Assembly (NCBI GenBank): GCA_018057705.1
Contig: JAGPDF010000043.1
Location: 1-41,044, forward strand
Source: Thermoanaerobaculia bacterium
Lineage (GTDB): Bacteria; Acidobacteriota; Thermoanaerobaculia; Multivoradales; JAGPDF01
Direction: 5' to 3'
DNA length: 41,044 bases
Positions 9,395 to 12,455 of this stretch are shown piece after piece. Numbering within the stretch: position 1 is the stretch's first letter; each line of letters starts with the position of its first letter. The notes below the pieces were generated by a model. It did no database searches, was not told where the DNA came from, and worked only from the letters and a program-made list of their open reading frames with translations. The position numbers were made by a program, and so were the translations under genes.

Positions 9395-9931
9395 ATGATC
9401 CGGATGACCAAGCAGACCGACTACGGGTTCGTCCTGCTCACCCGGCTGGCCGTCGAGCCGGGGAGGGCGATGAACGCCCCCGATCTCGCGGGGGAGACGA
9501 AGCTGCCGTTGCCGATGGTGAGCAAGATCCTCAAGTTGTTGGTACGCCAGGGCCTGCTGGCTTCCCACCGGGGTGTCAAAGGGGGCTATGCGCTGGCCCG
9601 TCCGGCGGCCGAGATCCACGCCGCCGAGATCCTTCGCGCCCTCGAGGGCGCGGTGGCGCTCACGGTCTGCATCGAAGGCTCACCCGGCGAATGCGACCGG
9701 GAGCCTTTCTGCACCGTGCGTGGGCCCTGGCAGCGGATCAACAAGGCGGTCTTCGAGGCGCTGGCCGGCGTGACGCTCGCCGAGCTGGCGGGCGAGACGG
9801 CTCCCCGGCTCGTGCAGTTGGGTGGCGCGCTCGGCCGCCCCGGCCGCGGGCAGGACGGCTTCGCGGGTATCGGCGGCCAGGGCAGCGCGGGCAGCCAGGC
9901 AAGCCCGGGCAGCCGAATCGAATCGCATTGA
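9395..9931 (+). CDS. Rrf2-family iron-sulfur regulator of the SUF operon
   Basis: The 178-aa protein begins with the Rrf2 winged helix-turn-helix ([16 protein letters not shown]; recognition part [20 protein letters not shown], then [12 protein letters not shown]). It has three cysteines in [15 protein letters not shown], in the place where IscR-type proteins hold a [2Fe-2S] cluster. Such proteins sense Fe-S cluster supply and switch suf genes. It is the first gene of the suf operon, 13 nt before sufB, and has its own promoter and dyad. The last 35 residues are a Gly/Ser/Arg-rich tail outside the family core. It resembles the SUF-associated Rrf2 regulators of many proteobacteria and acidobacteria more than E. 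coli IscR. Confidence 0.9.
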
Positions 9932-9944
9932 AGTTGGAGAACAG

Positions 9945-11396
<1,452 letters not shown>

Positions 11397-11436
11397 AGAG
11401 GCAAGGCGCGACTGGACTCACCGTCGAGCGACGGCA

Positions 11437-11510
11437 CCGGTCATGCGACTCGAGATCGACGCGTCAGCGGCAACCGCAAGCGAAGCGGCGCTCTCGAGTC
11501 GCATGACCGG
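11437..11510 (+). repeat. Hairpin 1 in the sufB-sufC spacer
   Basis: Arms 11437-11455 and 11492-11510 are perfect 19-nt reverse complements (CCGGTCATGCGACTCGAGA and its partner). The stem can be extended by CCGTCG (11421-11426) pairing with CGACGG (11511-11516) across a 10-nt bulge. The 36-nt loop is the conserved core (11456-11490) plus one base. Inside the core are the palindrome GACGCGTC and a mini-hairpin GCGG-CAA-CCGC. No T tract follows, so a simple intrinsic terminator is unlikely. Confidence 0.8.
11456..11490 (+). repeat. 35-nt core repeat, copy A (direct)
   Basis: This is one of two identical 35-nt sequences in inverted orientation; the other copy is 11581-11615. It begins TCGACGCGTC and ends AAGCGAAGCGGCG. 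I saw no further copy in the window. In a transcript the two loops would be perfectly complementary to each other, so they could form either two separate hairpins with kissing loops or one long duplex. Confidence 0.85.
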
Positions 11511-11554
11511 CGACGGCGCGGAGATCGGCCAAGCCGGTCGCGAAGGTGGAGCGA

Positions 11555-11640
11555 GGCCGTCGTTGCCACGTACTCTGGCTCGCCGCTTCGCTTGCGGTTG
11601 CCGCTGACGCGTCGAGCCAGAGTCCGTGGCACCGACGGCC
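11555..11640 (+). repeat. Hairpin 2 in the sufB-sufC spacer
   Basis: Arms 11555-11582 and 11613-11640 pair over 28 nt with two mismatches. The loop is 30 nt. The sequence 11581-11615 is the exact reverse complement of the core at 11456-11490. The stem sequence differs from that of hairpin 1 except for an outer CCGTCG/CGACGG and an inner GACTC, so the two elements share core and architecture but not stem. Confidence 0.8.
11581..11615 (-). repeat. 35-nt core repeat, copy B (inverted)
   Basis: This is the exact reverse complement of 11456-11490, 90 nt away. It fills the loop and inner stem of hairpin 2. Perfect identity of the core despite different flanking stems indicates either recent copying or selection on the core. 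Confidence 0.85.
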
Positions 11641-11687
11641 AAGCGAACCAATAGGTACTGGTACCTGACTGAACGAGGGAGTTTGAA

Positions 11688-12455
<768 letters not shown>

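Follow-up and report, generated by a model that had tools for sequence, protein, structure and literature searches.

The spacer between sufB and sufC in an uncultured Thermoanaerobaculia bacterium (Acidobacteriota) carries two quasi-palindromes whose loops are inverted copies of one core, and alignment with the sole congeneric genome shows that, as far as two aligned loci can tell, the arms have been rewritten pair by pair, the loops inverted in place and the cores changed together since the species split. Our preferred explanation, to which we give about an even chance, is that these quasi-palindromes are rewritten at the DNA level and that, as mRNA, they would form stable intercistronic hairpins that passively set the processing or decay of sufB relative to sufCDSU. 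It is part of this evenly balanced explanation that the twin palindromes would already have been present in the sufB-sufC spacer of the genus ancestor. Our confidence that the rewriting takes place at the DNA level, as the alignments suggest, is moderate, and our confidence in a putative role of the hairpins in mRNA processing or decay, which is argued by analogy, is low to moderate.

The suf locus and its sufB-sufC spacer

The window, which is the whole stretch of 41,044 nucleotides that was analysed, belongs to a 5.08-Mb assembly (GCA_018057705.1, here G000), and the congener is the Thermoanaerobaculia MAG Go_SlAct_bin_66 (here G001); both are draft assemblies of many contigs. Pfam matches at the locus comprise an Rrf2 regulator, SufB, SufC, SufD, a class-V aminotransferase (SufS-like) and a NifU-type protein, and the spacer is flanked by the end of sufB and the start of sufC (Table 1). 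As listed, the sufB reading frame opens at the first GTG upstream, and its true start probably lies later than position 9822.

Table 1. Features of the sufB-sufC junction (window positions) and loci of a second hairpin family
Feature	Position	Strand or orientation	Remarks
sufB ORF (SUFBD_core)	9822..11396	+	Pfam; listed from first upstream GTG
Hairpin 1 (quasi-palindrome 1)	11428..11519	+	-58.6 kcal/mol as RNA
Hairpin 1 left arm, 19-bp perfect stem	11437..11455	+	
Core copy 1, GACGCGTCAGCGGCAACCGCAAGCGAAGCGGC with flanking bases	11456..11490	+ orientation	
Hairpin 1 right arm, 19-bp perfect stem	11492..11510	+	
Linker, hairpin 1 to hairpin 2	11520..11554	.	
Hairpin 2 (quasi-palindrome 2)	11555..11640	+	-64.9 kcal/mol as RNA
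Hairpin 2 left arm, 28 positions	11555..11582	+	mismatches at 11563 and 11571
Core copy 2	11581..11615	-	exact reverse complement of copy 1
Hairpin 2 right arm	11613..11640	+	
sufC (ABC ATPase)	11688..12455	+	
CGGGCTCCTATTTGARGCGTGGTCGCCCA-loop family loci	L129-L158 (G000), L179-L195 (G001)		

A sequence-only reading of this DNA had described two long hairpins at the junction, with loops that are fully complementary copies of one core in opposite orientations, and both parts of that description are confirmed. In hairpin 1 a longer imperfect stem encloses the perfect stem of 19 bp, whereas the stem of hairpin 2 has 28 positions with two mismatches; folding z-scores against shuffled sequences are -6.3 for hairpin 1, -10.5 for hairpin 2 and -7.3 for the whole spacer, and none of the shuffled sequences folded as well. 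The cores are perfect reverse complements of each other (35 of 35 nt), although this 35-nt core takes in some inner stem positions, which leaves fewer nucleotides strictly unpaired. Within the core lies the palindrome GACGCGTC, and a 20-mer from the core was found twice in the window at up to three mismatches, against an expectation of 0.01.

An assembly artefact is an unlikely origin for this arrangement, as the perfect arms are short and recombined cores would not leave stems that pair. When scanned against Rfam 15 at the gathering score, the window matched only a tRNA, with no match in the spacer, and the G001 suf locus had no match. A T-tailed intrinsic terminator (a GC stem followed by a T-run) was absent from 11300-11800, and no sigma-70-like promoter was found in the sufB-sufC spacer.

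Arms, loops and cores in two species

The sufB-sufC junction of the congener also holds two hairpins with inverted cores, in the order (-,+) as opposed to (+,-) in G000. When the G001 cores are reversed in silico, the hairpins, linker and flanks all align in place with those of G000, so that both 32-nt loops are inverted at aligned positions. Inversion of the pair as a whole was rejected as the source of this change, since reverse-complementing the pair gives (+,-) again; therefore, each loop was inverted inside its own stem, or by an equivalent event. The two cores of a genome complement each other at 35/35 positions in G000 and at 31/32 in G001.

The stems have diverged by 37-59% between the two genomes. 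The arms of hairpin 2 are identical at 16-17 of 27 positions (left arms 17/27) and those of hairpin 1 at 11 of 27, a level that without the flanks is too weak as proof of orthology. Changes on both sides of a pair that stay Watson-Crick number 8 in hairpin 2 and 12 in hairpin 1, and these 20 comprise 8 transitions and 12 transversions, with no transition bias; across the 120 pairs of the four stems there are 2 G.T, 3 A.C and 9 other mismatches. Stepwise compensation in an RNA helix is expected to pass through G.U and to favour transitions, an expectation used here without a calibrated null. When all four hairpins are compared, both partners vary in 16 of 24 pairs, a result reached in 0/500 shuffles. 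This upholds the earlier proposal that the stems covary around a conserved core.

Only 3-4 of the 32 sites in each core differ between the species, and both copies of a species share three of the core changes, so the two copies evolve together. Since four-fold degenerate sites of sufB, sufC, sufD and sufS differ by 23-39%, the core is probably under some sequence constraint, at least as judged from these two genomes.

Template switching as a candidate mechanism

Template switching is known to homogenise the arms of inverted repeats and to invert their spacers (Abraham & Hazkani-Covo 2021, PMC8604942), and compensatory changes combined with loop inversion have been described as its strongest possible footprint (Monttinen & Loytynoja 2022, PMC8794818). 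The suf pair has both-sided arm changes with complementarity kept (20 pairs; 16/24 columns) and, for both cores, a loop inverted in place between relatives. Because the published products match exactly, we infer that the covariation, the flips and the joint core changes stem from template switching. During replication, a switch between inverted repeats would let one arm template the other, an interstrand switch would turn the loop round, and one core could serve as template for the other core.

This mechanism leaves unexplained why the core is better conserved than the stems and the four-fold sites. In addition, an inversion of 32 nt is large for template switching, and loop flips of the same appearance would result if the arms recombined with each other.

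Distribution among genomes

The four known hairpins (two each from G000 and G001) were used to build a covariance model, which was searched against 149 genomes of the class; the element was found in these two genomes only, at the same site. Two further class matches (E 0.004-0.005) lacked the core on inspection, 13 other exact partial matches to the core among genome contigs came without a matching hairpin, and the core was not found in viral contigs. Within the G000 assembly, there is no copy of the core at up to three mismatches beyond the suf pair, and the covariance model gave chance-level extras only.

Four same-family relatives with readable spacers have sufB-sufC gaps of 27-46 nt and no twin hairpins. 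The sequence-only reading had counted absence of the hairpins from close relatives, together with flat transcript depth across the spacer, against a regulatory role, and half of that case holds: they are absent from the four same-family relatives and from 147 of the 149 class genomes. They are retained at the same junction in the congener. A general hairpin at this junction across the order was rejected (median z 0.07 over 47 spacers). A few genomes carry isolated strong hairpins in the sufB-sufC spacer that are unrelated to this element, among them two distant members of the order, at L097 (G014) and L093 (G038), with z of -6.1 and -4.8. At L012 (G006, ~1483-1530), SufB seems to drop its last residues and run straight into sufC with no spacer, which may reflect a fusion, a deletion or an assembly error. 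Elsewhere, an assembly N-gap in L111 (3566-3665) is flanked by two copies of one sequence, which makes the ORF at this point a probable artefact of scaffolding.

A dispersed hairpin family of the genus

The genus offers an internal control in a second hairpin family, unrelated to the suf core, that has the conserved loop CGGGCTCCTATTTGARGCGTGGTCGCCCA and covarying stems. G000 has 32 copies of it and G001 has 17, and the 146 other class genomes searched yielded none. An 800-kb sample of the genome served for the count of background hairpins. Flanking sequence matched 12 sites of this family between the two species, and loop orientation was kept in 11. At the remaining site (L129 383-412 in G000, L184 1500-1530 in G001), the loop has been turned round within its stem while the arms changed in compensation, and a later insertion of ~1.4 kb breaks one arm of the inverted-loop hairpin in G001. 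Because one of 12 orthologous sites shows such an event, in-place loop inversion is, on this alignment, a real and occasional event in the genus.

Two other features of the family were observed. An inverted pair of CGGGCTCCTATTTGARGCGTGGTCGCCCA hairpins, with ~140 nt between cores and a geometry like that of the suf pair, lies at L136 1501-1670 (G000 C16:37105-37273), and the orthologous G001 site (L181) has one hairpin copy. The non-Watson-Crick stem positions of the family are mostly A.C (83, with 14 G.T); on the other strand an A.C position becomes G.U, a hint that an RNA may be transcribed from there.

Weighing the explanations

The sequence-only reading held that the transcript could switch between two hairpins and one long duplex. 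A switch of this kind, in which the alternation, or kissing of the loops, would set sufC relative to sufB and selection would keep the loops opposite and complementary, strikes us as distinctly unlikely. The two states are nearly equal in G000 (-163.8 kcal/mol for two hairpins, -161.8 for the enforced 35-bp core duplex), but in G001 the core-duplex fold is 10 kcal/mol worse than the two-hairpin fold. Co-transcriptional folding should trap the local hairpins. The cores are complementary and change together in both species, and their opposite orientation was kept though both loops flipped; however, complementary loops follow from two inverted copies of one core, a by-product that cannot alone support a switch. 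Since homogenised arms and inverted spacers are the signature of template switching, neither the covariation nor the loop complementarity counts as evidence for the RNA switch. Scarcity of G.U pairs points to maintenance at the DNA level, and the element is absent from the remaining family members examined. In its strict form, as an RNA device in which selection requires each loop to complement the other and so tolerates a flip of both but never of one, and whose loop-loop state (kissing or long duplex) would control SufC relative to SufB, we consider the idea very improbable.

The pair could also be what remains of a small mobile palindrome, REP/BIME-like or of another kind, which landed once as an inverted pair and is now immobile, with any effect on the mRNA incidental. 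We regard this as unlikely, if worth serious consideration, as G000 is rich in dispersed hairpin repeats, including the 32-copy family with its inverted pair on C16, and has 11 matches to the Y1 transposase family (Y1_Tnp), and inverted-order dimers are typical of REPs (PMC3733652, PMC3116915). Against it, the other 147 class genomes and the rest of G000 yielded no second locus, and the suf stems greatly exceed the 5-13 bp published for REPs (PMC3733652). The many dispersed copies, the GTAG- or CGTC-type end tag on a short stem and the cognate RAYT flanked by the repeat that mark REP/BIME/REPIN elements were not found for the suf pair; none of the 11 Y1_Tnp genes is flanked by the suf core, because the core occurs only at suf. 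Near one Y1_Tnp gene (G000 C8:6095-6427) there are REP-like GGGACAGGCACG hairpins (L119 5933-6010 and 10677-10765), likely a REP/RAYT system.

Alternatively, the core may serve as double-stranded DNA, as a site at which a regulator, a nucleoid protein or a recombinase acts; the site would have been duplicated in inverted order, and its orientation would be immaterial. Conservation above the neutral level in a core whose orientation flips freely, and the palindrome within that core, would suit such a site, but with no further site elsewhere in G000, no promoter-like match nearby and no candidate protein found we give it little credence. An integron attC site was also dropped as a candidate: in attC the conserved parts are the stem ends, whereas in the suf pair the conserved part is the loop.

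In the preferred reading of DNA-level rewriting, the suf mRNA must, by folding prediction, still carry a pair of stem-loops of great stability (-58.6 and -64.9 kcal/mol). Other operons suggest by analogy that these could act as a passive intercistronic barrier or an RNase III-type processing site that uncouples sufB decay from sufCDSU, and they would be passive rather than a switch that senses a ligand or state. If the hairpins do also process suf mRNA, a mutational mechanism would be maintaining a regulatory structure at this locus. The locus is thus a natural case in which covariation, usually taken as proof of an RNA structure under selection, stands beside large in-place loop inversions that point to template switching, so it bears on covariation-based RNA discovery in bacteria and would allow the rewriting of arms and the inversion of 32-nt loops to be measured.

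Comparison with known systems

Hairpins that stabilise or process mRNA between cistrons include the malE-malF REP, those of Rhodobacter puf and that between iscR and iscS in the RyhB-regulated isc mRNA of E. coli. The suf pair is similarly a strong structure between cistrons of one operon and, as with iscR-iscS, the operon is one for Fe-S assembly. Unlike these hairpins, the suf twins have inverted identical cores.

The pair resembles REP, BIME and REPIN elements (PMC3116915, PMC3733652) in being extragenic and palindromic, in forming an inverted dimer with compensatory stem changes and in occurring in a genome with Y1-type transposases. It differs in its single locus, in stems of 19-28 bp or more as opposed to 5-13 bp and in having no linked transposase; in addition, its loop is conserved and its stems are free, whereas in REPINs the ends are conserved and the spacer is free.

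With quasi-palindromes shaped by template switching, the suf pair shares perfect arms that changed pair by pair, loops turned round within their stems and, on our reading, maintenance at the DNA level. Published inversions of this type are mostly short, with 2-5 substitutions in yeast genes and, in RNA genes, usually 4 nt and at most 7-8 nt (PMC8604942, PMC8794818), whereas the suf loops are 32 nt long and belong to two neighbouring hairpins with a common, co-evolving core.
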